Shown: positions 46,673 to 63,421 of the stretch, piece by piece
Position numbering within the stretch: position 1 is the stretch's first letter
How the letters are laid out: each line of letters starts with the position of its first letter
Assembly (NCBI GenBank): GCA_017624275.1
Contig: JAGANG010000035.1
Coordinates: 65,003 to 129,002 of the forward strand
Direction of reading: 5' to 3'
DNA: 64,000 nt
Source: Spirochaetales bacterium
GTDB taxonomy: Bacteria > Spirochaetota > GWE2-31-10
Notes under the pieces: model-generated
Told to the model about the DNA's origin: nothing
Databases searched by the model: none
Seen by the model: the letters and a program-made list of their open reading frames with translations, nothing else
Position numbers and translations under genes: made by a program

Positions 46673-47542
46673 TTAATTTTTATAGTTTTCTGTCAATGCG
46701 ACATTTTCTTTTACATGTTCGGGGCGTGTCATTGTTACAAGACAGCTTGTGACTCCCGGCGTATTAATTACAAATGACAGAGCTTCGTTTAAAGGATTTT
46801 TCATTTTATCTTTTTCTGAAAGTGCCTTGGTAAAAAGTTTATTGTCCGTAAATATCGGATTTAAATGGCGTACATCACGAATTGACGGTTTAAAAGTATT
46901 GTCTATAGATTTTGAAAATATTCCCTGACACAGCGGACTGTATGCTATAAAACCAATATTTTCATCCTGACAATATTTTAAAACTTGCAATCCCTCATCT
47001 TTTTGTAAAATATTGAATCTGTTTTGTACGCAGACATACCCCGCCCCTTTAGTTTCTTTTAATAATTCTGGGGAAAAATTACTTACACCGAAATATCGTA
47101 TTATTTTTTCCTGTTGAAGTTTTTGCATTACGGAAAATACTTTATCCCAGGCAGTTTTTCCGTCCGGAAAATGAATTTGGTACAAATCGATGTAATCAGT
47201 TTTTAATCTGTTAAGTGATGTTTCTATTTCACGTAAAATATTGTCCGGATCAAGAGAGTGTTCCACCACTCCGTTTTCATGTTGTACCAGACCGCATTTT
47301 GAAGCAATGAAAATTTTTTCTCTGAATAATGAAAGTTCATTCCCGAGAATTTCTTCTGATTTTCCGTTACCGTAAATCGGAGCAGTATCAAAAAAATTGA
47401 TTCCACATTTGTATGCTTTTTGTATAGCTTCTCGTACTTTTTTCTCGCTTACGTTTCGCCAGCCTTTTATTCCTGCCCCCCACCCGCCGTAGCCGATTAC
47501 CGAAATATTCATATCTGTTGCAGGAATTTTTCTGTATATCAT
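46673..47542 (-). CDS. Aldo/keto reductase
   Basis: NADPH-dependent TIM-barrel oxidoreductase of 289 residues. The catalytic tetrad is visible: D and Y in NFFDTAPIYGNGKSEEILG, K in FIASKCG, H in DLYQIHFPDGKT. The C-terminal half has RYFGVSNFS and IAYSPLCQGIFSK. The frame opens at 47578, but GGAG lies 8 nt before the ATG at 47542 (MIYRKIPATDMN). Substrate is not predictable. It is transcribed divergently from the radical SAM gene; the intervening 81 bp contain that gene's promoter. Confidence 0.9.
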   Translation of the reverse strand: MIYRKIPATDMNISVIGYGGWGAGIKGWRNVSEKKVREAIQKAYKCGINFFDTAPIYGNGKSEEILGNELSLFREKIFIASKCGLVQHENGVVEHSLDPDNILREIETSLNRLKTDYIDLYQIHFPDGKTAWDKVFSVMQKLQQEKIIRYFGVSNFSPELLKETKGAGYVCVQNRFNILQKDEGLQVLKYCQDENIGFIAYSPLCQGIFSKSIDNTFKPSIRDVRHLNPIFTDNKLFTKALSEKDKMKNPLNEALSFVINTPGVTSCLVTMTRPEHVKENVALTENYKN

Positions 47543-47588
47543 TTTGATTGCTCCGTATTTTTTGTCTTTATACTTCATATAGCCGGAT

Positions 47589-47617
47589 TTGACAATTTTT
47601 CTGCTATTAGATATACA
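47589..47617 (+). promoter_or_regulatory. Sigma-70 promoter giving a probable leaderless mRNA
   Basis: TTGACA (47589-47594), 17-bp spacer, TATACA (47612-47617). The ATG of the radical SAM gene is at 47624, seven bases past the -10 box, where transcription normally starts. No ribosome site lies between. Confidence 0.7.
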
Positions 47618-47623
47618 TATTTT

Positions 47624-49414
47624 ATGAAAATAATTTTAGTGTCAATTCATATCAAAAAAAATGCTCCCGAAGCAATTCCTTTGGCTGCAGCAATGTTAAA
47701 ATCCTATTGTAATGATTTAGCTGATATTTCTCTTGTTGATTTTGCTTTGGATGATGATAAAAATAAAATTGTAGAAGAACTGAAAAAATACAACGCCGAT
47801 GCTGTAGGTTTTTGTGTTTATTTGTGGAATCGTGAAATTATTTGCGAAGTAATGAACGCTTTACGCAATGATTTGCCAAATATAATTCTTTTTGCCGGCG
47901 GTCCGGACGTAACAGCGGATATTTCCGGTTTTATAAAAGATTCCTCTGTGGATTTTGCTATATCCGGCGAAGGCGAAAAAGCCTTGCGAGAAGTTTTGCA
48001 GAAAATTAAATCTGACGGTTCTATAGAAAATATTCATGAGATTCAAGGTGTTGGGACTAAAAAAAATCCTGATGCAAAACAAGCATTACCGATAGAGGAT
48101 TTATCGGTAATTCCGTCACCGTTTCTTTCCGGAATTATAGATGTAAAAAAATACAACGGTGTTTTGTGGGAACTTTCACGAGGTTGTCCGTTTCATTGTG
48201 CTTTTTGTTATGAATCAAAAGGCAGTCCTTCTATCAGACAATTTCCGCTTGATAGAATAGAAAAAGAACTGGAATTTTTTGAAAAAAACGGTGTAGAGCA
48301 AATTTTTGTACTCGACCCTACTTTTAATAAAAACATGCAGCGTGCAAAACAAATCTTGCGACTGATACAAAATAAAGCTCCGAATATTCATTTTACATTT
48401 GAAGTTCGTACAGAGTTTTTAGACAGAGAATCGGCGGAACTTTTTTCTTCGATTCCATGTGGATTACAAATTGGATTGCAATCTACAAATCAAGTTGCAC
48501 TTGCTGAAATAAACAGAAAATTTGACGGCAATGCATACAGAAAAAAAATAAATTTGCTTAATGAATGCGGCGTTGTTTTTGGATTAGATCTAATTTTTGG
48601 ATTGCCGAAAGATAATTTTAACAGCTTTTGCAAAAGTGTGGATTATGCGATAAGTTTGCAACCAAACAATCTTGATGTTTTCCAACTTGCGGTTTTACCG
48701 GGAACCGTACTTTACGACAAAATATCAAAATATGAGCAAAAAATAAAATTTATGACAGTACCGCCATATTTAATTGAAGAAACTCCAGATTTTTCAAAGG
48801 AAGATTTTATTAAAGCTAATAATTTGAAAAAAGCCTGCGATGTTTTTTACAACAGCGGAAAAGCTGTCGGTTGGCTGTATATAATTTTGGAAACCTTAAA
48901 AATTTCTCCGTCAGATTTTTTCATGTACTTTTATGATTGGCTGGGTAAAAATGGAAAGATAAAAAGTTTTTACAGTGACAATGAAATTTTTGAATTACAA
49001 ACCGGCTACACTAAGTTTTTATTTGAGCAATACGGAAAGAAAGCCTTTGTTCTTCCTGTGTGCGATATTATTAAATTGCACAATTCATTAAATTACTCTT
49101 TAAGTTTTATTTGTGATGACTTTTCCGGTAAAAAAAATAGCTACAATTTACCTCATTCTACCAAACTAATCGAATTGCATTATGATGTTGATGATTTGTT
49201 TCAAGCAGGAGTTATTCCGCTGAAATATTGGACAAAGGAATACAAGCAGAAAAAGACATTTGCCGTAACATGGAATAAAAACGGTAATTCAGATGTTATA
49301 ATGATTGATAAAAAATGGTTTGAGCTATTAAGAAATCTTAACAGTAAAGAAAAATTTAATTCGGAAGAAAAAGAATTTCTTGATTATTGTGTAGAAGAAA
49401 AAATTTTAATCTAG
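47624..49414 (+). CDS. B12-binding radical SAM protein
   Basis: 596 residues. An N-terminal cobalamin-binding Rossmann-like domain (about 1-140; VGFCVYLWNR, LFAGGPDVTADI, FAISGEGEKAL) is followed by a radical SAM barrel with the CxxxCxxC cluster site at C188, C192 and C195 (RGCPFHCAFCYE), and then a C-terminal extension (about 390-596) of the DUF4080 type. The B12-binding motif lacks an obvious DxHxxG, so cobalamin may bind base-on. Substrate unknown; such proteins include methylases and ring-forming enzymes. The frame opens at 47420, inside the antisense of the reductase; the ATG at 47624 is the true start. Confidence 0.88.
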   Translation: MKIILVSIHIKKNAPEAIPLAAAMLKSYCNDLADISLVDFALDDDKNKIVEELKKYNADAVGFCVYLWNREIICEVMNALRNDLPNIILFAGGPDVTADISGFIKDSSVDFAISGEGEKALREVLQKIKSDGSIENIHEIQGVGTKKNPDAKQALPIEDLSVIPSPFLSGIIDVKKYNGVLWELSRGCPFHCAFCYESKGSPSIRQFPLDRIEKELEFFEKNGVEQIFVLDPTFNKNMQRAKQILRLIQNKAPNIHFTFEVRTEFLDRESAELFSSIPCGLQIGLQSTNQVALAEINRKFDGNAYRKKINLLNECGVVFGLDLIFGLPKDNFNSFCKSVDYAISLQPNNLDVFQLAVLPGTVLYDKISKYEQKIKFMTVPPYLIEETPDFSKEDFIKANNLKKACDVFYNSGKAVGWLYIILETLKISPSDFFMYFYDWLGKNGKIKSFYSDNEIFELQTGYTKFLFEQYGKKAFVLPVCDIIKLHNSLNYSLSFICDDFSGKKNSYNLPHSTKLIELHYDVDDLFQAGVIPLKYWTKEYKQKKTFAVTWNKNGNSDVIMIDKKWFELLRNLNSKEKFNSEEKEFLDYCVEEKILI

Positions 49415-49418
49415 CTTG

Positions 49419-50195
49419 TCAGTCTTTTTTTGTTTCTATAAGAGCTTCTAAGCAAACAAGATTATCTTGATTTATTTTGCAAGTGAGATTACTGATGTAA
49501 TTATTGAATACAGAAGATATTAAACCGAGATGTTTCTGGGAATTAAGCATATATTTGAGAATCAAATCGTGCATGTCTTCTGCATTAGTTATTTCATCGA
49601 CTATGGATTGCAATTGAATTGCATTGTCTGAGTTTGTATAATTTTTTACTGAAATAACAATTTTATTATCCTTGTATGATACGGTTAATTCGTATCCGTA
49701 ATCTCCTATACCGTATTGATTGGCGTTTTGTAGAAATTCTTGAATGACAAAGGATAAATTAGTCACTAACTGTTTTATTTTATTAGTACTTAATTTTGTT
49801 TTTTCTTTTAAATAAAGCGTAAGATAGCGAAGTAAAAAAGGTCTGAAAATATTAATTTCATCCCAATCTATTTTCTGAAAAGTTACCATCAAAAGTATAT
49901 TACTGTCAGTCAAAGAAGATTCAGATTGAATAATCAGATTTTCGTCGCTTAATACCATATTAATTTCAATCATGTTGTCTTGTTGATCTAATGTTTTCGA
50001 ATATTCTGTCAGTTGTTTTGATAAATTCGTATGTATTTTAGTGACAGAATTTTTTGTATTTTCATTGTTGTATTTTCTTTTTGCTAAAACAAACAAATTT
50101 GTCAGGAAATCGGTTGTATAATTAACTAATATTTTATGATCAAATATTTTTTCTCGAAAATGAATAATTGTTTTAGTAGATTTTTTGTTAATCAT
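49419..50195 (-). CDS. GHKL-like ATPase-domain protein (slr1658/DUF6272-like)
   Basis: 258 residues, soluble. The C-terminal half contains FVIQEFLQNANQYGIGDYGY (about 150-170), which resembles the N-box of histidine-kinase and anti-sigma GHKL folds (E..QNA..YG), followed by a beta-strand ELTVSYKDNKIVISVKN. No clear G1 box or phosphoacceptor His is visible, so it may be an anti-sigma-like or degenerate ATPase. It is the last gene of a six-gene operon, starting 7 nt after the DUF554 gene. It could work with the SpoIIE phosphatase at 29105 (inference). Confidence 0.6.
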   Translation of the reverse strand: MINKKSTKTIIHFREKIFDHKILVNYTTDFLTNLFVLAKRKYNNENTKNSVTKIHTNLSKQLTEYSKTLDQQDNMIEINMVLSDENLIIQSESSLTDSNILLMVTFQKIDWDEINIFRPFLLRYLTLYLKEKTKLSTNKIKQLVTNLSFVIQEFLQNANQYGIGDYGYELTVSYKDNKIVISVKNYTNSDNAIQLQSIVDEITNAEDMHDLILKYMLNSQKHLGLISSVFNNYISNLTCKINQDNLVCLEALIETKKD

Positions 50196-50202
50196 AGAAT
50201 AT

Positions 50203-50907
50203 TTACCTGTTCATCCATAATAATTCATAACACCAACTGAATAATACCACAAAAATAAATGACGGAGTAAAATTCATTACTTTTATATTTTTTAATTTTA
50301 ATAATGAAATTCCAAGTCCTAAAATTAAGATTCCGCCTAATCCGGTAAGTTGTGATATTAAGAAATCTGTGAAAAAGTTTTCCAGAAAATACGCTATTGT
50401 TGTTATTCCGCATTGATAAAGTAAAAGCGGAAATATTGAAAATAAAACACCTATTCCGTAAGTAGATGCAAATACAATAGACATGAATCCGTCAAGAATT
50501 CCTTTAGTTATCAAAATTGAATGATTATTTCTTAATGCTCCGTCCATCGCACCTATGATTGACATAGAACCAATGCAATATAACATTGTAGCTATAACAA
50601 AACCTTGGGTAAAAGACTTTTCATTATTTGCTAAGCGAGATTTTAATTTATTCCCGAATGTCTCAAGTTTATCTTCTAATGAAAAATATTCCCCTACTAT
50701 AGTTCCTACCATCAAACTAAGGACTACGATTATCATATTTTTCATTTCTGAAGCCATGGAAAAACCTAAAAATAAAGTGATTAAACCGCAGCATTGAAAC
50801 AGGATTTCCTGCAATCTTTCCGGGATAGCTTTTTTTAACAATAAACCTAAGACTGCACCTATAACAATCAGTCCGGCATTAACAATACTTCCAAAATAAA
50901 TCATCAT
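50203..50907 (-). CDS. DUF554 family membrane protein
   Basis: 234 residues with about seven membrane helices. The beginning MIYFGSIVNAGLIVIGAVLG, followed by LKKAIPERLQEILFQCCGLI, is the DUF554 signature; GAMDGALRNNHSILITKGILDG and the C-terminal GLGGILILGLGISLLKL are further family blocks. Function is unknown; a transport role is assumed for the family. It overlaps the preceding paralogue gene by 4 nt (ATGA), so it is co-translated with it. Confidence 0.88.
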   Translation of the reverse strand: MMIYFGSIVNAGLIVIGAVLGLLLKKAIPERLQEILFQCCGLITLFLGFSMASEMKNMIIVVLSLMVGTIVGEYFSLEDKLETFGNKLKSRLANNEKSFTQGFVIATMLYCIGSMSIIGAMDGALRNNHSILITKGILDGFMSIVFASTYGIGVLFSIFPLLLYQCGITTIAYFLENFFTDFLISQLTGLGGILILGLGISLLKLKNIKVMNFTPSFIFVVLFSWCYELLWMNR

Positions 50908-51791
50908 TTTTTGCTCAACTTTAATCGCATGTGTTCGTGCTTTTGTATAAGAAGTTTTTTGTATTCATTAAATGTAAAAGTAAATAAACGTGACGCTTTA
51001 ATAAATTCTTCACCGACATGAATAATATCTTCTTCATGCGGAATAAGATATCGTTTTTTCAAGTCTACAAGTCGTAAAAATTCCAATCTGTATGTTATAT
51101 AAAATTCTTTTTGTTTTAAAATTTGTATCAAATCCAATTCATCGATAACTCTATACGCTTTTATACAAACAACGGTGTCGATATCGTAAGTTGTCGTAAT
51201 ATCAGTATCAATACAAGTTTGAATTAAATTGTCGATAGCTTTAAAAAAGACATCCAAATCTTGAGACGGCAAAGATTTTTGCAAATAATTCGCTTTGTAT
51301 TTATAATCAATAGCTGCATTTTCACGTAAAAATAAGCGAAAATCATCATCGGGAGTATACGCTTCCATATATAAAAGCAATTGAAGCATTTTTAATAAAT
51401 CTAAAAGTTGTTCATTTAATTCCGTAATCCATTTTGACGGACATTGAGTGTCATCATAACGGCGAGTCTGTCGATTTTTCCCGGAAATCCAAAGTTTATA
51501 GCGTTGCCAATCAAAGTTGATTCTACGTTTATTTATATAATCTTTTAACCAATCTTGATTATTTGTAACTCGGATATAAAATTTTTCAAGGAAACGAATT
51601 ATAACGTAGTATTTCGGAGCTTCACTTAAAATATTTTCTATGGATAATTGCTGACAAGATTGCATTTTTTCGTTTATTTCAAGAAAGAAAGTTTCTATTT
51701 TTTTATAGTTGTGTTTCAATTCTTGAATTGAAGCTTCTAAACGTCTGTCATCATGTGTCGATATAGTTTCATTTTCCAAGTCTATTTCCAT
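50904..51791 (-). CDS. Unknown protein, paralogue A of a tandem pair
   Basis: 295 residues, soluble, mainly helical, no signal peptide. It shares its whole length with the gene directly upstream (51808-52674): YYVIIRFLEKFYI, RRYDDTQCPSKWITEL, AAIDYKYKANYLQKSLPSQD and CIKAYRVIDEL are conserved between them. No known domain was recognised. The invariant RYDDT-CPS and DYKYKAN-LQKS-PSQD blocks could form a binding site. Tandem duplication with about half of residues conserved by eye means an old duplication kept by selection. Confidence 0.75.
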   Translation of the reverse strand: MEIDLENETISTHDDRRLEASIQELKHNYKKIETFFLEINEKMQSCQQLSIENILSEAPKYYVIIRFLEKFYIRVTNNQDWLKDYINKRRINFDWQRYKLWISGKNRQTRRYDDTQCPSKWITELNEQLLDLLKMLQLLLYMEAYTPDDDFRLFLRENAAIDYKYKANYLQKSLPSQDLDVFFKAIDNLIQTCIDTDITTTYDIDTVVCIKAYRVIDELDLIQILKQKEFYITYRLEFLRLVDLKKRYLIPHEEDIIHVGEEFIKASRLFTFTFNEYKKLLIQKHEHMRLKLSKK

Positions 51792-51807
51792 TCAATTCTC
51801 CTCGAAA

Positions 51808-52674
51808 TTATTTAATTATACTGCGAACTCTGTTTTGTTTTTCTATCAAGATTTTTTTATAGTCGTTAAATGAGAAAAAGAGATTTTTGTACATTTCAGA
51901 AAATTTTTCTGCAATAACTAGAACTTCTTCTTCATTAGGCATTACATAACGTTCTGCTTTTGGCGTTTTTTTCATCATTTCAAGATGATATGTCACATAA
52001 AAATCTTTTTGCTTTAAAATATTCATAATTTCAGATTCATCTATAAATCTATACGCTTTTATACATTCCGATGTATCAATATCAAAAGAATTTGAAGGAT
52101 TGGCTTCTCTGCAAGTTCTGCTTAAATTATCAATAACTTTGAAAAATACTTCAATATCTTGTGACGGCGGAGACTTTTGGAGAAAATTAGCCTTGTATTT
52201 GTAATCGATAGCCGGATTTTTACGAAGGAAAGCTCTGAAATCTTCGTCAGGTAAATATACTTCCATGTACAACAATTCTTGTAACATTTTAAGGATTTCA
52301 GTAAACATATTAAGCAATTCGGTAACCCAGGTAGACGGACATAAAGTATCATCATATCTGCGTTTAGCATTCTTTTTTTCAGTTACCCATGCTTTGTATT
52401 TTTTCCAGTTAAAATTGATTTTTTTTCTATTAATATAATTTTCAAGCCAATCTTTATCCTTAGTAATGGCAATATAAAAACGTTCTAAAAAGTGAACTAT
52501 AGAATAATATGACGGTGCATTTGTCAGTATTGAATCAACAGAAGCCTTTTCATCTATTTCAAATTCTCTTGTTTTTTTCATGAAAAAAACTTCTATTATG
52601 TGATAAATCTCTTTAATTTCGTTGTCTTTTTCTTTTAATACACTAGGGTCTTTCCCTAAAATAATTTCACTCAT
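51808..52674 (-). CDS. Unknown protein, paralogue B of a tandem pair
   Basis: 288 residues, paralogous to the adjacent downstream gene. Conserved blocks: YYSIVHFLERFYIAITKDKD, RRYDDTLCPSTWVTEL, PAIDYKYKANFLQKSPPSQD and DTSECIKAYRFIDE. Soluble and helical. It starts 12 nt after the M49-like peptidase gene and is 16 nt before paralogue A. No family was recognised, and I know no experimental function. Its partner may form a heterodimer (inference from tandem order). Confidence 0.75.
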   Translation of the reverse strand: MSEIILGKDPSVLKEKDNEIKEIYHIIEVFFMKKTREFEIDEKASVDSILTNAPSYYSIVHFLERFYIAITKDKDWLENYINRKKINFNWKKYKAWVTEKKNAKRRYDDTLCPSTWVTELLNMFTEILKMLQELLYMEVYLPDEDFRAFLRKNPAIDYKYKANFLQKSPPSQDIEVFFKVIDNLSRTCREANPSNSFDIDTSECIKAYRFIDESEIMNILKQKDFYVTYHLEMMKKTPKAERYVMPNEEEVLVIAEKFSEMYKNLFFSFNDYKKILIEKQNRVRSIIK

Positions 52675-52686
52675 GATATTCCCTCT

Positions 52687-54297
52687 TTATTCTTCATCTT
52701 GGAATGGTTCTGTTTCTCCGGCAAACGGGAAATAAGGAAGAATATCGATAGGCAAATCTTTCATTTTTTTAATAAAATCTTCAACAACCACAGAAGGTTT
52801 TTCGTATTTTTTTATGAAAGAATCTGCCATTTCATAATTTCCTTCACCTTGAATAGTCAATAATAAAGTCAATAGTTTTTCTATTGCCATTTCCATTTTT
52901 CGTAAATCGGCTGTAATACTTAATGAAGAGTCTTGAAGTTTTAAAATAGCTCCTTCTTCAACAAGAAAATTCCATTGAATTATATTTGCAATTCCGTGGT
53001 GGTTATTTTGACCGAAACGAATAGAACGCAACATACCGGTTAAATAAGTAAAAATCAGTTCTGTAATATTACAATCTGTCAGAAATCCTTGTTTTATTAG
53101 ATAAAACAAAAGATATAAACCCATAACATCAGCCTTCGCCTCTTCTATTACAGAATATAAATCTTTTAAATAATAAGAAACATCACGTAATTCTCCGTCA
53201 TCATCTTTAATCATTCCGATTCCAAGCCCGTGACTGATTTCATGCAAAATTATATGATTAAAATATGCATTAAATGCGATTTTTTCCTTGTCTCTTTCAC
53301 CAAAGACAACATCAGCGATAGGTAACATTATAGAATCAAATTTTGCTTTAATCACATTATGCATAATAATTTTTTTTGCACCGAATTCCGCTCTGATTTT
53401 TTGTGAATTAGGAAGATTAAAAGCAGCTGTTACTACCGGACCGCGTCCGTCTCCGGCACTGTAAATTACATCAACTATTGTAAGTTGAGATTTTCGTTCT
53501 ACTTTATTTTTTTTATAATTTTCAGGAACCGGTAAAAGAGATTGTAATGTATCGGTCAGCTTCAAAATTTGCTGGGTTTTGTGTAATTGAACTTCATTTT
53601 TTATTGTTATAAATGAAGTAAAAGATGTTTTATATCCTAAAAATCTATCGTCATAATATTCGTAAGCACCGATTAGCGGCTCGATTGAATTATTTTCTAA
53701 TTGAATCCAACGAATGTCTGCTTCTTCAAAATTATTTGTAATAAAAGCATTTGCCTGTGCATTGAGAAAGGATTTTAAATAAAAGTTTTCGGTAGCATCG
53801 CCGGCGTCATAAAGCATGTGAGCAATCATCACAAGTTTATCTCTGTAATAATCGGAATATTTTCGGGCAATAAGTCCGCCCTTTTCATCACGTACAATTA
53901 CCGTATACGGAGAACAAAAATCATCTTCGTCTTCCGGATGATTTTTTAACCATTCATTCCACTCTTCAATGGTTAAATCTTCCGGATAAAATCCGCAAAC
54001 ATCATGTTGAACATAATCTTTTATGAAAACTGTATTGTCAAATTCGTTTACACCGCCAGCCATGATATAAAATATTTTCAAAAGAGAATCTTTTTTTTGT
54101 TCTTTCAGTGATTCAATAATTTTAGCGTTTTGCGGCGAACGTTGCACCATATACAAATCTTGAATATATTTTGTCGCTTCAATCAAATAACTTAACACAT
54201 TTTTTTGTGACTCTGATAAGTGAGATGTGTCAGCTTCTATTTTGGTTACTTTTAAATATTTTTTTAGAGAACTTACAGAGATTTCTTTAAATTTCAT
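52687..54297 (-). CDS. Zinc peptidase of M49 (dipeptidyl-peptidase III)-like family
   Basis: 536 residues, cytosolic (no signal). Zinc site HEISHG (352-357) and a downstream glutamate helix VIEEAKADVMGLYLL (E385/E386, D390), the HExxH...EExxxD pattern of the short bacterial M49-related group. The DPP III motif HELLGH has one more residue, so the family is related, not identical. The N-terminal half (DYYRDKLVMIAHMLYDAGDAT, ALYSxGDGRGP-type AGDGRGPV) is typical of this group. Starts 14 nt after the HisIE-like gene. Substrates are probably small peptides. Confidence 0.8.
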   Translation of the reverse strand: MKFKEISVSSLKKYLKVTKIEADTSHLSESQKNVLSYLIEATKYIQDLYMVQRSPQNAKIIESLKEQKKDSLLKIFYIMAGGVNEFDNTVFIKDYVQHDVCGFYPEDLTIEEWNEWLKNHPEDEDDFCSPYTVIVRDEKGGLIARKYSDYYRDKLVMIAHMLYDAGDATENFYLKSFLNAQANAFITNNFEEADIRWIQLENNSIEPLIGAYEYYDDRFLGYKTSFTSFITIKNEVQLHKTQQILKLTDTLQSLLPVPENYKKNKVERKSQLTIVDVIYSAGDGRGPVVTAAFNLPNSQKIRAEFGAKKIIMHNVIKAKFDSIMLPIADVVFGERDKEKIAFNAYFNHIILHEISHGLGIGMIKDDDGELRDVSYYLKDLYSVIEEAKADVMGLYLLFYLIKQGFLTDCNITELIFTYLTGMLRSIRFGQNNHHGIANIIQWNFLVEEGAILKLQDSSLSITADLRKMEMAIEKLLTLLLTIQGEGNYEMADSFIKKYEKPSVVVEDFIKKMKDLPIDILPYFPFAGETEPFQDEE

Positions 54298-54311
54298 ATT
54301 AATTCAAATCC

Positions 54312-54857
54312 TTACATACGATTTCTAAGTTCTTCTAAAACTTTATCAAAAGGAATTTCTTTTGATACCAAATATACCATGAGATGATACAAAACATCGG
54401 CAGATTCATAAATTGTTTCTGCTAAGTCATTACGAGCTAATATTACTTCAATTGTCTCTTCACCAAGCTTTTTAAGAATTTTCTCTTCACCTTTTTGAAA
54501 TAGATGAGTTGTATAAGAATTTTTCGGCATATCTTGTTTTCTTTGTCGGATTGTCGCTTCAAGTGCTTTTAACACATCAGACAACGGCATATTTTTATCT
54601 TCACATACATTAGATGAATTTTTCTTTAATTTTATAATAATTTTATCATTATTAATAACAACATCTTCCGTTACCGGGGAAAAACCTTCAATTAAATGTT
54701 CTACAACTCTTCCGTTTTCCGTATATTCCCAAATAACATTATTTTCTATGGTTTTTGACCATGCTTTACTGTTCATCATACAAGAGTAAATATTTTTATC
54801 TCCGTCTGTAATTTCACAATGATAAACTGGTATAGCATTAAAATCTGGTTGTTTCAT
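54312..54857 (-). CDS. hisE: HisIE-like protein: degenerate HisI domain plus HisE
   Basis: 181 residues. The C-terminal half (about 92-181) is a phosphoribosyl-ATP pyrophosphohydrolase of the all-alpha NTP-pyrophosphatase fold: LEATIRQRKQD, KILKKLGEETIEVILA (EExxE) and ESADVLYHLMVYL. The N-terminal half keeps the HisI shape (MMNSKAWSKTIENNVIWEYT) but lacks the catalytic cysteines and the W-KGETSG segment, so the cyclohydrolase is dead. No other his gene is nearby. It may hydrolyse another nucleotide. First gene of the six-gene operon. Confidence 0.8.
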   Translation of the reverse strand: MKQPDFNAIPVYHCEITDGDKNIYSCMMNSKAWSKTIENNVIWEYTENGRVVEHLIEGFSPVTEDVVINNDKIIIKLKKNSSNVCEDKNMPLSDVLKALEATIRQRKQDMPKNSYTTHLFQKGEEKILKKLGEETIEVILARNDLAETIYESADVLYHLMVYLVSKEIPFDKVLEELRNRM

Positions 54858-54974
54858 TTTATAAATATCCTTTCAATAAAAAAGTCGTACTATTATATAA
54901 AACAACAATAAAAATAGCAATGCTGTTTTCTCGGAGTTAATGTGAAAAATAGTACAATATTTTATCCTTATCTA

Positions 54975-56762
54975 CTACAAAAGACTTTTGTACATTGATA
55001 AATATTGATTTGTTGATTTATCCCAATTGAAACGGACTTGAGCTGCCGTATTACGCATATGTTGCAAGTTCCCATTATCATAAAAGCAAGTTAATGCTCT
55101 GTCGACTGTTTTTAAAAATGATTCAAATATTGAAGTTTCTTGTGTCGCTGAAAATTTAAAACCGGTTTCATTGTCTGTGACGGTATCATGCAATCCTCCG
55201 ATATCATGTACTATAGGTAAAGTTCCGTAACGCATTGCTATTAATTGACTGATTCCGCAAGGTTCATAATAAGACGGCATTAAAAAAAAGTCTGCATAGC
55301 CGTACAACATTTTTCCTAATTCATCATCAAAAACATTGAAATACAAACAATTTTCATGTTGATTAAGAATTTCTGCGTTCCTTTCAAGATTTCCTGTCCC
55401 GGTAAAAATAAACATTGCATCATTATTCAATAATTTTTCAATAGATTGAATATTTTCTTTTGAAAATAGAATTCCGACTTTTTGTTCTGCTGTTCTGCCG
55501 ACAAATACAAACAGCGGTTTTTTTAAATATTCCTCAGTTTTTACAGAAGATAAATGTGATTTTACTTGGTGATAATTGAAAAACTTTTTCTTATGTCTCG
55601 AATAAATTTCGTCGGTAAAAGAAGATATTTCTTGTAAAAATTTAGCTTTCCCCTCTTCTTTTTTATTTTGCCAATTTTTCTCACCTGTATCAAAAGGATA
55701 AATCAAAGATTTAGGATTGTGAAAATCATAATCTATTCCATTTATAATTCCGGTTAATCGATTATTAATAAATTTGTTGTTTAAATCATTTTCCAAACCA
55801 CACCCGCAAGCTTGATTTTCCGAATCGTGAAGTGTTATTTCCGATGCATAAGTTTTGCTGACCGTGTTTACTTGATCTGATAAATTTATGGCTGCACGCA
55901 TTGGATTAAAACACAAACAACTTTTATTTATTAATTGTTGAAAAATATATTCTTTTTCATTTTCAGAAAGAGTTCCGTCTATTAAATAGCGTTTTATTGA
56001 ATCATCAAATTTATAAATATTTTTTAATTTACCGTGTAATTTTGGATTATTTATAGTTTTAAACAGTAAATGATTCAATTCGTCTTTTGACAATGGTTGT
56101 TTTTCTGCAGGATAACAAATTTGTTGAAGTAATAAATTTTTGCTTAATCTTTTCCACAATACCGGGCTCCAACTGCGAAAAGAACTTTGTCCTAAAATAT
56201 CAAACGGCAATACAAAAGGACGAATTCCTTGGTAGTTTAAGTTATGTATCGTAAAAACAGTTTTTACCCGATTGCGTAATTCTTGGAATTTAGCTGAATA
56301 ATTTAATAATAAAAATAAGAAGCCGGTATGCCAATCATGACAATGTAATAAGTTTACATTTTTGAACAAGTCACAACGCAAAAGAATTTCAAGAACTGCT
56401 TTGCTGTAAAATGAGAATCTGCGTGCGTCATCTTCAAAGGGCCCTTTTTTTACTGAATTGCTGTTTATATATACGTTAGAATATTTTCCGCTGAAAAATG
56501 TTTTATTATGAATAAAATAAAAAGATACGCCGTTATGATTAAAATATTTTAGTTTTACAATGTAAGGTCTTTTAGAAAAATTTACGGTACAATGATAAAT
56601 TGTTTTTGCTTTTACGTTGTCGGCGTATCCTGGCAAAAATACTGAAATTGAGTCAACTTTATCTTTTAGATTATGAGATAAATCGTTTACCACATCACCC
56701 AGTCCACCGACTTTTGCAAAACCGGTACATTCTGCTGCTATCATTGCCACATTAATTTTCAT
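54975..56762 (-). CDS. glgA: Glycogen synthase GlgA with central insertion
   Basis: GT5 glycosyltransferase that adds glucose from ADP-glucose to glycogen. N-terminal KVGGLGDVV (17-25) is the ADP-glucose site; LLHCHDWHTGF and TIHNLNYQGI follow; the C-terminal PSYYEPCGISQLIAMRYGT is the donor-binding loop. At 595 residues it is about 100 longer than usual. An extra charged, helical stretch of about 80 residues lies at about 195-285, between the NLxYQG and NTVSKTYASEIT motifs. The start is ATG 56762 with GAGG 8 nt upstream, not the frame's first codon at 56831. Confidence 0.93.
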   Translation of the reverse strand: MKINVAMIAAECTGFAKVGGLGDVVNDLSHNLKDKVDSISVFLPGYADNVKAKTIYHCTVNFSKRPYIVKLKYFNHNGVSFYFIHNKTFFSGKYSNVYINSNSVKKGPFEDDARRFSFYSKAVLEILLRCDLFKNVNLLHCHDWHTGFLFLLLNYSAKFQELRNRVKTVFTIHNLNYQGIRPFVLPFDILGQSSFRSWSPVLWKRLSKNLLLQQICYPAEKQPLSKDELNHLLFKTINNPKLHGKLKNIYKFDDSIKRYLIDGTLSENEKEYIFQQLINKSCLCFNPMRAAINLSDQVNTVSKTYASEITLHDSENQACGCGLENDLNNKFINNRLTGIINGIDYDFHNPKSLIYPFDTGEKNWQNKKEEGKAKFLQEISSFTDEIYSRHKKKFFNYHQVKSHLSSVKTEEYLKKPLFVFVGRTAEQKVGILFSKENIQSIEKLLNNDAMFIFTGTGNLERNAEILNQHENCLYFNVFDDELGKMLYGYADFFLMPSYYEPCGISQLIAMRYGTLPIVHDIGGLHDTVTDNETGFKFSATQETSIFESFLKTVDRALTCFYDNGNLQHMRNTAAQVRFNWDKSTNQYLSMYKSLL

Positions 56763-56879
56763 ATTTATTACCTCATTTAAGTTTAAATTTTTAGTTTTTG
56801 ACTTTTTACGTCCTTTTATGTATATCAACATCTAAAATTATAGAATTATAATAAATATTATGAAATTAGGAGATTAAAA

Positions 56880-58764: not shown

Positions 58765-59463
58765 TTACATTTTATCTTGCAAATATCGTGTCATCAAACG
58801 ATAAATATCTTTTATAAATCTCTCATTAAGTTCTGATAAGCGTTGAGCTTCCAAAGGCTTTGAAGAAACTGTCCTCACTATATATTTTTTCTTAATTTTT
58901 GCAATATTTTTCTTATTTCTGTTTTGTATTTCTACAATATACGTCATTTGAGTATTTACATTTTTTATCAGATTAAATTCTCCGCTTTGATAATTATCGA
59001 TAAATACATGAATTTCCGGTGTGTTAGCCGGATTTTCCACACTTCTGAAAAAAGTAGTTTTTATATTTTTTCCTTGGATAAATTTGAACAATTTCATTTC
59101 CAAATCACTTTTATTTTTATCCAACACATTTAGGTAAAATTTTTCTTCTTCCTCTGATAAGTAAATATCATTAGTTTCTGTAACATTTTCCGTTTCTTCT
59201 GAATTTTCTTCTTTTGTTTCCGTTTGAGGCATTTGTTCATCACTTGAAAGATCAGAAAGATTTTCTTCTATTTGTTCAATATTTTCTTGTTCTGCTTCAT
59301 TTAATTTTATTTCTTTTGATTCTGACTTTAGATATTTGCCGTTTATTTTAGTTTTTTCATTAAAAGTTATGTTAAATAAAATCTTCTCGGGAAAAACTTT
59401 ATTTGTCCCGAACATAAAAAAAGGCAATAGCATTAACAATAAAAATAAACTTTTTCTTAACAT
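58765..59463 (-). CDS. Secreted acidic protein, unknown function
   Basis: 232 residues from the ATG at 59463 (MLRKSLFLLLMLLPFFM). The frame extends to 59508, but AGGGTG lies before 59463 and the signal peptide begins there. After a signal peptide, residues about 50-115 are an extremely Glu-rich low-complexity section. The C-terminal half (FFRSVENPANTPEIHVFIDN, YIVEIQNRNKKNIAKIKKKY) is a beta-rich domain without recognised family. Probably periplasmic. Upstream of the lipoprotein gene in one unit. Confidence 0.65.
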   Translation of the reverse strand: MLRKSLFLLLMLLPFFMFGTNKVFPEKILFNITFNEKTKINGKYLKSESKEIKLNEAEQENIEQIEENLSDLSSDEQMPQTETKEENSEETENVTETNDIYLSEEEEKFYLNVLDKNKSDLEMKLFKFIQGKNIKTTFFRSVENPANTPEIHVFIDNYQSGEFNLIKNVNTQMTYIVEIQNRNKKNIAKIKKKYIVRTVSSKPLEAQRLSELNERFIKDIYRLMTRYLQDKM

Positions 59464-59635
59464 TAATTTCACCCTACTACTGATAAAATTTAATTGCTTA
59501 TACTGCAATTTATATATAAAAACAACATATTCTTTTTTATGTCAAAGAAGAATAGACTGTTTGATAATTAGGAAAAATTATAGTATTATTTCCTTTATTT
59601 TATTAACAACTAATATATATATATTGGATATTTTT

Positions 59636-60859
59636 ATGTATAAGAACATATTTGGACAAGAAAAAGTTACCAATATTCTACAAAATGAAATCTCATTTAG
59701 TCCTCCTACTCTAGCTCATTCTATGATTTTTCACGGAAATCATTATACTGGAAAACTTTCTGCAGCATTAGAAACTGCACGTTTAATAAACTGTACCAGA
59801 GAAAAAGCTGATAATTGTACTTGTTCTAATTGTGTTGCAATACGTAATCTTACATTCAATGGTCTTGTTATTCTTTCTCGTCGAAATTATTATTATGAAA
59901 TAATAGAGACTTTAAGCTGCTATCGTCAAAAAAAACTTCCACATTTACGTGATAAACTTTATCGAGCAATCAGATTATCATTTACTCCGTTGCAAGATTT
60001 TTTGATTGAGAATACTCCGATGGCTGACAGTGATAAAAAACAGCTTCAAACTTTAGGAAGTAAATTCGCAGATTTTATAGATAAACCTGAATATACTTCC
60101 ACAGAACTTGAGGATATTGAAAAAGGTGCAACATTCTTTTTGAACCTTTATAAAAATAAAAACATTCCGGTAAACGTGATTCGTAATATGTTAGATTGGT
60201 CATATATGACATTACCGGAAGGAAAAAAAGTTGTTATCATCGATAATGTCGATCAATTAGAAACGTCTTCGGAAAATGTATTATTAAAGCGTTTGGAAGA
60301 ACCTTCTGACGATTTGTATTTTATTTTATTGGCGGAAAATAACAGTCGTGTGTTGCAAACTATTAAATCTCGATGCAGAGCGTATTATTTTAAAGATTTA
60401 TCGAATGAAGCTAAAAATAATGTTTTACAAAATATCTATTTGCAAAACGATCCGAATATTTATTCGTCTATTTATGAATATTTTCATCAAAAAGACCCTA
60501 TTTTACCCGGAAATTTAAAAGCCAAAGTTGACAAATTAATAAATTTAGTTTTTCAAAAAAATGTTAATTTTTCCGAGCTGTACTTATTTATCGAAAGCGA
60601 GAAAAATAAAGAAATATTATTAGGTATAACAAAAGAATTGTATTCTGTAATCTCGAATGAAATTTCATTATATGAAAATAAAAATACCCAAACAGAATAT
60701 TTCAGTTTACGTTCTTTCCCATTAAAATTTTTAAGGGAAATTGAAAAAGATTTAAAGTTGCGTATTGAGCGAACATCGGCATTGAATTTGACTCCGAAAA
60801 CTCAATTAGAAGGAATTTTGTATCCAATTAAGGAGATGATTTTACATGCAAATAGGTAA
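59636..60859 (+). CDS. holB: DNA polymerase III delta-prime-like clamp-loader subunit
   Basis: 407 residues. AAA+ clamp-loader fold: IFGQEKVTNILQNEIS at the start, Walker A FHGNHYTGKLSAA, zinc-binding cysteines in NCTREKADNCTCSNC, KVVIIDNVDQLETSSENVLL (Walker B region) and a LLKRLEEPSDDLYFILLAEN-SRVLQTIKSRC sensor segment. In this family the Walker A is often inactive. The frame opens at 59336, but the ATG at 59636 gives the normal HolB start. It overlaps the histidine kinase gene by 14 nt. Confidence 0.88.
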   Translation: MYKNIFGQEKVTNILQNEISFSPPTLAHSMIFHGNHYTGKLSAALETARLINCTREKADNCTCSNCVAIRNLTFNGLVILSRRNYYYEIIETLSCYRQKKLPHLRDKLYRAIRLSFTPLQDFLIENTPMADSDKKQLQTLGSKFADFIDKPEYTSTELEDIEKGATFFLNLYKNKNIPVNVIRNMLDWSYMTLPEGKKVVIIDNVDQLETSSENVLLKRLEEPSDDLYFILLAENNSRVLQTIKSRCRAYYFKDLSNEAKNNVLQNIYLQNDPNIYSSIYEYFHQKDPILPGNLKAKVDKLINLVFQKNVNFSELYLFIESEKNKEILLGITKELYSVISNEISLYENKNTQTEYFSLRSFPLKFLREIEKDLKLRIERTSALNLTPKTQLEGILYPIKEMILHANR

Positions 60860-62054
60860 AAAATTTTCTAAAGTAAGTCATTCTATTATTGAAAAAATAG
60901 ATCTTCTCGGATTACGAAAAATGTTCCACGATTTAGAAGAAGAACATTCCGATTTGATGTTGATATTTGATTCCTTGGTTGAAGGAATTATCGCAATGAA
61001 TAGCGATAATAACGTGTTATTTTACAATAAAGCATGTTGTTCTTTGTTGGGGATTCCGTTATTGGAAGTTCACAAAAACATGGTCATAGAAGATATTGTG
61101 AAAAATAAAGAAATTCTTGATTTGATTTATAATATGTTGAAAAAAAGTGATCGTATAAATCAAGAAGATTTTATTTTAAACAAAGAAACGCAACAATGTT
61201 TAAATTTTTCTCTTCACCCTCTTGTTAATGAATATAAAATTGTCGGAAATATATTGGTTATTAAAGACATAACACAGGAACGAGAAGCAAGTAGTACGGA
61301 AAAGCATCTTGGAAATATGCAAACTTTCAGAGCTTTAACCGGTGGTTTGGCACATGAAATAAAAAATCCTTTAGGTTCATTAAGTATTCATGTTCAATTA
61401 TTGCAACATGAAATTAAAGACTTAGAATGCGACTCTTTAAAACAAGAAGATATAACTCTTTCGCTGAATACTATTAATGATGAAATCATTCGATTGAATA
61501 AAATAGTTACTGATTTTTTAAATTCTGTAAGACCACTGAAAGCTGTTCTTCAACCGGTAAATTTTCATGAATACCTTAATAAAATTGTAGATTTTGTTAA
61601 GCCTGATTTAGAAAATAAAAATATAAAATTAGATTGTAATTACGGAGATGAATCTCTTACAGTAGCTCTTGACGAGAATGTTTTTAGACAAGCTATACTT
61701 AATCTTATAGAAAATAGTATTGCTGCCATAATTGAAGCAAATAGAAATGACGGAAAAATAACTATTTCGACTTCTGAAAAAGGCGGATATTTAATTTTGG
61801 AAATCCGTGACAACGGCAACGGTATTCCGCCTGAAAATAAAAATAAAATATTTGAACCGTATTTTACAACAAAATCATATGGTTCCGGTTTAGGATTGAT
61901 GATTGTTTATAAAGTAGTAAAAGAGCACATGGGCGATATAAAGGTTGCTTCAATGAGCGGTAAAGGAACTGCTTTTTCTATTATTCTTCCCCTATTGGGA
62001 AACGAAGACAGATTAATCGAATATACACCAAAGGAAAATAATATTTCCAAATAA
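60846..62054 (+). CDS. atoS: Soluble PAS histidine kinase (AtoS-type)
   Basis: 402 residues without membrane helices. PAS domain at about 35-145 (IFDSLVEGIIAMNSDNNVLF), dimerisation domain with H170 in GGLAHEIKNPLGSLSI, then HATPase: NLIENSIAAIIEANRND, LEIRDNGNGIPPENKNKIFE, YGSGLGLMIVYKVV. It should phosphorylate the regulator encoded 11 nt downstream. The name AtoS follows use in treponemes; the input signal is not acetoacetate by necessity. Starts inside holB (14-nt overlap), with AGGAG 10 nt upstream. Confidence 0.92.
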   Translation: MQIGKKFSKVSHSIIEKIDLLGLRKMFHDLEEEHSDLMLIFDSLVEGIIAMNSDNNVLFYNKACCSLLGIPLLEVHKNMVIEDIVKNKEILDLIYNMLKKSDRINQEDFILNKETQQCLNFSLHPLVNEYKIVGNILVIKDITQEREASSTEKHLGNMQTFRALTGGLAHEIKNPLGSLSIHVQLLQHEIKDLECDSLKQEDITLSLNTINDEIIRLNKIVTDFLNSVRPLKAVLQPVNFHEYLNKIVDFVKPDLENKNIKLDCNYGDESLTVALDENVFRQAILNLIENSIAAIIEANRNDGKITISTSEKGGYLILEIRDNGNGIPPENKNKIFEPYFTTKSYGSGLGLMIVYKVVKEHMGDIKVASMSGKGTAFSIILPLLGNEDRLIEYTPKENNISK

Positions 62055-62065
62055 GGAAAAAATAT

Positions 62066-63421
62066 ATGCAGACAGGAAATATTTTAATTGTTGATGATGA
62101 AAAAGGAATTCGTGAAGGCTTACGACTTTTTTTGAAACGTGAAGGACATCAAACTTTTACGGCAGCTGACGGAAGAGAAGCCTTGGAAATCCTAGAAAAA
62201 AATGAAATAGATTTAGTTATAAGTGATTTAAAGATGCCGCGTATTGACGGTGATGAATTATTGGCATTTATAAAGAAAGATTATGCTGGTGTAAAAGTAA
62301 TAATATTAACCGGTCACGGTACTGTAGAAAATGCAGTTGAATCGATGAGAAACGGTGCTTATGATTTCCTTATAAAACCGTTAAACCTTGATAAATTGGG
62401 ATTAATCGTAAAACGGGCATTATCACAAAGACAACTTGAGATTGATAATAGAAATCTCAAGAAAAAATTAAATGTTTTTTCCAATCAAATGATTGGTAAA
62501 TCAGACAAAATGATAAAAATTGCCAATCTTGTAGAACAAGTAGCTCCGTCTAAAACATCAGTTTTAATTCTCGGTGAAAACGGTGTGGGAAAAGAAGTCA
62601 TTGCTAATTTAATTCATGATTTCTCAAATAGAAAAAATAATCCTTTTATTAAAGTTCACTGTGCAGCCTTATCTGAAAATCTCCTTGAAAGTGAACTTTT
62701 CGGTCATGAAAAAGGAGCATTTACGGGAGCAATTAAAGAAAAAAAAGGACGATTTGAACTCGCAAACGGCGGAACAATATTCTTAGATGAAATCGGAGAA
62801 ATCTCGCCTAATATCCAAGTAAAACTTCTTCGAGTAATTCAAGAAAAAGCTTTTGAAAGAGTCGGCGGTGAAAAAACAATTAATGTTGATGTTAGAATTG
62901 TAGCTGCAACAAACAGAGATTTGCGAAAAGAAGTCGAAGAAGGTCGTTTTCGAGAAGATCTTTACTATAGACTTAATGTTGTACAAATAACAGTTCCGCC
63001 GTTAAGAGAACGAAAAGAAGATATTTTATTGATGATTTCATCTTTTATAAAAAAATTCAGTGAAGAAAATAACAAAAATATTAAAGATATTACTAAGAAA
63101 GCCCAAACTGCATTGTATAATTATGATTGGCCGGGAAACGTAAGAGAATTAAAAAATGTATTGGAAGCTGCGGTTGTTTTATCAAAAGACGGAGTTATTG
63201 ATCTGAATGACTTACCTAGTTATTTAAAGAATGATGACGATCACGGTAATTTCTTAAAAATACAAATGCCGGCAAGTATGGCAGAAATTGAAAAAGAAGC
63301 AATCATTTCTACACTTGCTTTAGCAAACGGAAACAAATCTAAAACGGCAGAAATGCTTAATATGAACCGAAAAACTCTTTATGCGAAATTAAATGAGTTT
63401 CAAATTCTTCAAAATACTTAA
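62066..63421 (+). CDS. atoC: NtrC-family sigma-54 response regulator (AtoC-type)
   Basis: 451 residues. Receiver domain with D54 in LVISDLKMPRIDGDELL and K in FLIKPLN. AAA+ domain: Walker A ILGENGVGKEVIA, the sigma-54 contact loop GAFTGA, Walker B GGTIFLDEIGEISP, and GNVRELKNVLE. C-terminal Fis-type helix-turn-helix (NGNKSKTAEMLNMNRKTLYA). All key residues are intact, so it should activate sigma-54 promoters. Follows its kinase by 11 nt with AAGGAAA, and ends at a terminator. Confidence 0.95.
   Translation: MQTGNILIVDDEKGIREGLRLFLKREGHQTFTAADGREALEILEKNEIDLVISDLKMPRIDGDELLAFIKKDYAGVKVIILTGHGTVENAVESMRNGAYDFLIKPLNLDKLGLIVKRALSQRQLEIDNRNLKKKLNVFSNQMIGKSDKMIKIANLVEQVAPSKTSVLILGENGVGKEVIANLIHDFSNRKNNPFIKVHCAALSENLLESELFGHEKGAFTGAIKEKKGRFELANGGTIFLDEIGEISPNIQVKLLRVIQEKAFERVGGEKTINVDVRIVAATNRDLRKEVEEGRFREDLYYRLNVVQITVPPLRERKEDILLMISSFIKKFSEENNKNIKDITKKAQTALYNYDWPGNVRELKNVLEAAVVLSKDGVIDLNDLPSYLKNDDDHGNFLKIQMPASMAEIEKEAIISTLALANGNKSKTAEMLNMNRKTLYAKLNEFQILQNT

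Follow-up and report, generated by a model that had tools for sequence, protein, structure and literature searches.

The six tightly packed minus-strand genes at positions 49419-54857 are best explained as a lineage-specific patchwork operon, assembled on an older gene pair for HisE and an M49 dipeptidyl peptidase III (DPP III); we put the probability of this reading at about 0.6. Across the families of this order, conservation is limited to one gene pair, and the remaining genes have more restricted or scattered linkage.

Layout of the gene run and genomes compared

The window, i.e. the whole 64,000-nucleotide stretch of DNA that was analysed, derives from a draft genome (G000) of 2.58 Mb in 91 contigs with an estimated completeness of 84%. 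Nine genomes of the host's order within Spirochaetota, most of them draft assemblies, were compared. They fall into three families: the host's family f1 (G000, its sister species G003, G001, and G002), f2 (G029, G004, G061, and G047, of which G004 and G061 form one genus, g4), and f3 (G054). The following features were identified in and immediately upstream of the gene run.

54892-54920, minus strand: sigma-70-like promoter candidate, TTGCTA-N17-TATAAT (consensus scan, 10/12 matches)
54312-54857, minus strand: gene 1, hisE-type, 181 aa
52687-54297, minus strand: gene 2, predicted M49 dipeptidyl peptidase III, bacterial short form, 536 aa
51808-52674, minus strand: gene 3, orphan protein X1, 288 aa
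50904-51791, minus strand: gene 4, orphan protein X2, tandem paralogue of X1, 295 aa
50203-50907, minus strand: gene 5, DUF554 membrane protein, 234 aa
49419-50195, minus strand: gene 6, degenerate GHKL-fold protein, 258 aa

Re-checking of the open reading frames confirmed all six genes at these coordinates, and the spacings reported in an earlier note on this DNA (14, 12, 16, -4, and 7 nt in transcription order) proved exact. All six genes start with ATG. The upstream neighbour, a glycogen-synthase-like gene on the same strand (54975-56831), is separated from gene 1 by 117 nt, and the promoter candidate lies within this gap; the sister species has a TATAAT box in the corresponding position. 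The region contains 33 promoter-like matches vs. 35.7 +/- 6.1 expected from shuffled sequences, a count that argues neither for nor against internal promoters, and the candidate taken alone would be no evidence of function. Downstream, a gene running in the opposite direction (47420-49414) stops 4 nt short of gene 6. With this convergent gene on one side and the promoter-bearing gap on the other, the unit is bounded at both ends. Its tight packing is not exceptional here and is weak evidence by itself, because 27 of the window's 37 pairs of same-strand neighbours are no more than 20 nt apart (median gap, 8 nt).

The convergent neighbour encodes a B12-binding radical SAM protein, which matches the KedN5 C-methyltransferase family with an E-value of 4.7e-37, far under the family cut-off. 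Elsewhere in the window, a tightly spaced group at 59336-63421 begins with a gene for a DNA polymerase III delta-subunit-like domain (59336-60859), downstream of which lie a PAS histidine kinase (60846-62054) and a sigma-54 response regulator (62066-63421). None of the six operon proteins matched the anti-phage defence models of PADLOC.

The encoded proteins

HisE catalyses the second step of histidine synthesis, the removal of pyrophosphate from phosphoribosyl-ATP. Gene 1 has an intact PRA-PH (HisE) domain at residues ~92-181, of which 96-180 account for the full domain, as indicated by matches to PF01503 (E = 1.1e-21; 77.4 bits vs. a cut-off of 21.3) and TIGR03188 (E = 1e-27; 96.1 bits vs. 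42.7), and the HisE motif block (KxGEE..E and ExAD) is intact in all six gene 1 orthologues. No family was assigned by sequence to the first 80 residues, in which PF01502 was undetected, and a profile comparison of this half with the HisI proteins of the order gave a colinear but weak match (P = 0.03). The AF2 model of gene 1 (pLDDT 86.6) resembles both the bifunctional HisIE 6j22 (E = 1.9e-10) and, over 75 columns, the stand-alone HisI 1zps (E = 6.3e-4; rmsd 2.8) in Foldseek searches. Stand-alone hisI genes are present in all nine genomes of the order, and their products share the invariant SRSR..W.KGEESGN, DCDxD, and Cys/His motifs. Because these catalytic and metal-binding motifs are without counterpart in all six gene 1 orthologues, residues ~1-80 are, as judged from the model and the alignments, a HisI (PRA-CH) fold predicted to lack the active site.

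Gene 1 is the sole strong PRA-PH match in G000 (the only other match is weak, at 28 bits), and hisG, hisD, and a stand-alone hisI are all present in this genome. The simplest reading is thus that gene 1 is the genome's working hisE, derived from a HisIE fusion, with predicted hydrolytic activity. A combination of nucleotide housekeeping or signalling with a peptidase and a membrane channel, as had been proposed for the run, is not supported. A repurposed MazG-type housekeeping enzyme was also considered and is less likely, since no other strong HisE accompanies hisG, hisD, and hisI in this genome. In a survey from 2007, the hisIE fusion was found in none of four histidine-making spirochaetes (PMC1963479). 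The two g4 genomes (loci L081, L082, and L121) keep hisG, hisI, and hisD and have no clear HisE; in G004, only a weak MazG-type match is found.

Dipeptidyl peptidase III is a cytosolic enzyme that trims oligopeptides into dipeptides. Gene 2 matches PF03571 (Peptidase_M49) with an E-value of 3.3e-19 (69.2 bits vs. a cut-off of 21) and, in phmmer searches, the DPP III enzymes of Caldithrix (6eom; E = 2.4e-101) and Corallococcus (5zum; E = 4.3e-79). It carries the zinc motif HEISH at residues 352-356 and EEAKAD at residues 385-390. By these sequence features, gene 2 is a short bacterial pentapeptide-motif M49 dipeptidyl peptidase III with predicted activity. Among 296 Spirochaetota genomes, M49 was detected in eight, every one of which belongs to the host's order.

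The products of genes 3 and 4 are 49% identical, in keeping with the paralogy suggested earlier. Their duplication was placed in the host genus (tree, branches starred), and each of the other seven genomes of the order has one copy of the family, here called X. A single-sequence search detected X in 9 of 393 Spirochaetota genomes, namely all nine of the order and none of the 384 outside it. A profile search of 384 genomes (375 outside the order) returned only chance-level fragments; the best of them (E = 0.009, in G048) lies inside the hflC gene and was discounted. Nothing of note was found in Pfam or NCBIfam, nor did a profile search of the PDB or viral contigs return a match. The AF2 model of X1 is all-helical (12 helices; pLDDT 81.4; pTM 0.77) and has no fold match in the PDB (best E = 0.11) or among viral models. 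X probably serves in the cytosol as a binding or scaffold protein and not as an enzyme, an assignment held with low confidence. In four genomes (G001, G029, G004, and G061), a gene for a conserved, helical protein of 144-161 aa lies directly upstream of X; it has only a faint likeness to YtxH and matches no curated family at its cut-off.

L014:7751-8185, L016:6714-7199, L017:297-773, and L018:6986-7462: YtxH-like genes upstream of X

Gene 5 matches PF04474 over its full length (E = 7.7e-75). Only three of the nine genomes of the order have DUF554, and in the window genome alone it is linked to genes of the operon. In G003, the sister species, 61 nt separate X2 from the GHKL gene, and this stretch matches both ends (the first and last bases) of the DUF554 gene, with a score of 25.5 that none of 2,000 shuffles equalled; two cruder forms of this test, run before the ATGA overlap was included, gave weak results. 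Because G003 keeps both gene ends, this scar indicates that DUF554 was present in the ancestor of the genus and was deleted in G003, and its new insertion in the window genome was rejected on the same ground. DUF554 is outside the conserved core.

Gene 6 matches NF047703 (slr1658 superfamily) over residues 109-244 with an E-value of 1.3e-10 and 41 bits vs. a curated cut-off of 100 bits, and the same profile matches all eight homologues of gene 6 (best E = 8.1e-11). The alignment of these homologues contains a conserved N-box-like QExLQNAN motif and no visible DxGxG G1 box. Profile and motifs together mark gene 6 as a degenerate GHKL protein that is akin to the slr1658 superfamily and falls below its membership cut-off. 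In family f2, a gene for a WG-repeat protein (nine matched stretches each) adjoins the GHKL homologue in G004 and G047 (L123:3141-4193 and L124:5702-6808).

The first identification of genes 1, 2, and 5 as a pyrophosphohydrolase, a metallopeptidase, and a DUF554 protein is thus borne out by Pfam, and the GHKL-like label of gene 6 holds in the sense of an NF047703 relative.

Conservation of gene neighbourhoods and its interpretation

HisE and M49 genes are adjacent on the same strand in six of the eight genomes with M49 (G000, G003, G001, G002, G029, and G047), which belong to two families. The pair is not obligatory, because M49 stands without HisE in G004 and G061, where hisG, hisI, and hisD are kept. 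In each of the four f1 genomes, the GHKL gene is next to the pair, with divergent orientation in G001 and G002; in family f2, it is on other contigs than the pair. X adjoins M49 in three of the eight genomes with both genes (G000, G003, and G001; two genera of one family), and the two are on separate contigs in G002, G029, G004, G061, and G047. The sister species G003 has five of the six genes in the same order as in the window genome. In G001, the HisE-M49 pair abuts the YtxH-X pair, both of them older, and this arrangement resembles the merger from which the operon of the host would have arisen.

Two controls show how little gene order is preserved in this order. No gene next to hisI is common to the loci of four genera, and hisG, which lies next to hisD in the host genus, is on a different contig from hisD in G001, G002, G004, and G029. 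Given this degree of scrambling, the HisE-M49 link stands out and the six-gene combination does not. M49, X, and the GHKL protein are present in nearly identical sets of genomes, but a single order amounts to one inheritance event, and this co-occurrence proves no functional tie.

These distributions bear directly on the proposal of the earlier note that the run is an undescribed six-gene system whose parts act together. The short gaps, the single clear promoter candidate upstream, and the five genes kept in order in G003 are compatible with such a system. Short gaps are, however, the norm in the window, X is away from M49 in five of eight genomes, the GHKL gene is unlinked in the second family, and DUF554 is absent from six of nine genomes, including G003, from which it was deleted. 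The six-gene system is largely refuted by these scattered neighbourhoods, and we regard it as very improbable. What survives of the functional grouping is the smaller HisE-M49 core, joined by the GHKL gene in the host's family; likewise, the co-occurrence of the paralogues with M49 and DUF554 that would have supported a module holds for M49 in three genomes and for DUF554 in the window genome, and fails elsewhere.

A narrower alternative is that HisE and M49 genuinely function as a unit, in which the pyrophosphohydrolase acts together with the peptidase. Their adjacency outlasts the general loss of gene order in two families, and plant M49 proteins with the pentapeptide motif carry an N-terminal Nudix domain (PMC5805324, PMC9820243). 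On the other hand, the host genome has other histidine genes and no HisE besides gene 1, which is thereby explained without M49, the g4 genomes keep M49 without HisE, and bacterial short M49 enzymes function without a Nudix partner (PMC5805324, PMC9820243), so that we consider this alternative unlikely. Similarly improbable is an extended form of this alternative, in which HisE with its non-catalytic HisI domain and DPP III would be one unit, paralleling the plant Nudix-DPP III fusion without being related to it, and X proteins would have been recruited as adaptors to this unit in some genera. The place of X in the operon might also be accidental, if X were a diverged form of a widespread protein (e.g. 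a replication-linked or stress protein) that is invisible to sequence searches. X does adjoin holA in G054, which it follows, and trmB in G001 and G047, which it precedes, and its presence in every genome of the order is as expected of a core gene. This explanation is nevertheless doubtful: the profile found nothing above chance in the 375 other Spirochaetota, the model has no PDB or viral fold match, and the trmB loci fetched from other spirochaetes have no X-family gene alongside. The more specific idea that X is the diverged gene of a spirochaete-wide holA-X-trmB block was rejected, as no such block occurs in those loci; the X-sized trmB neighbours tested there are cation-efflux or ABC-transporter genes.

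Under the favoured patchwork reading, the older core would be a housekeeping metabolic pair of the sole HisE and a cytosolic DPP III. The two enzymes would contribute to amino-acid supply by synthesis and recycling, respectively, and would probably be co-expressed for that reason, although this shared role is a guess from the enzyme identities. In the host's family, the degenerate GHKL protein would have joined the pair, most likely as a regulator that acts by protein binding and not as a kinase. The order-specific helical X would then have been added in the host genus and its sister genus, perhaps as a non-enzymatic adaptor, and duplicated in the host genus. DUF554 would have been one more local acquisition, which the sister species has since lost. 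The whole run may be transcribed as one unit.

On this reading, the run exemplifies a tight operon that was pieced together recently. It also offers a case of a HisIE enzyme with an apparently decayed cyclohydrolase half alongside a separate hisI, and an orphan family found throughout an order (nine of nine genomes) and without a fold match. If the HisE-DPP III pairing were functional, it would be relevant to the presence of a pyrophosphohydrolase domain in plant M49 peptidases, for which we know of no explanation.

Comparison with known systems

Gene 5 is an ordinary member of the DUF554 family (PF04474), with no difference noted. Gene 6 and all eight of its homologues share the NF047703 profile with the slr1658 GHKL regulators, but gene 6 has an additional N-terminal region of ~100 residues and lacks a visible G1 box. 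In Synechocystis, disruption of Slr1658, a putative two-component-type regulator, reduces recovery from iron limitation (PMC7555055).

Gene 1 shares the HisI-HisE domain order and the complete HisE motif block with known HisIE and HisE proteins (PF01503; 6j22, 7bgn, and 1yvw). Unlike in HisIE, its HisI half appears to have decayed, and a separate, intact hisI is present in the same genome. Gene 2 belongs to the same length class (~540 aa) as the DPP III enzymes of Caldithrix abyssi (6eom), in which the pentapeptide M49 subgroup was first characterised (PMC5805324), and Corallococcus (5zum). Its HEISH zinc motif is that of the Caldithrix enzyme, and its second motif, EExKAD, is also as in known pentapeptide-motif DPP III. 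It differs from known bacterial DPP III enzymes in adjoining hisE and, within Spirochaetota, in being confined to the host's order. In plants, a Nudix hydrolase is fused to the same pentapeptide M49 subgroup (PMC5805324, PMC9820243), whereas HisE, the neighbour of DPP III in the genomes described here, has an unrelated pyrophosphohydrolase fold.
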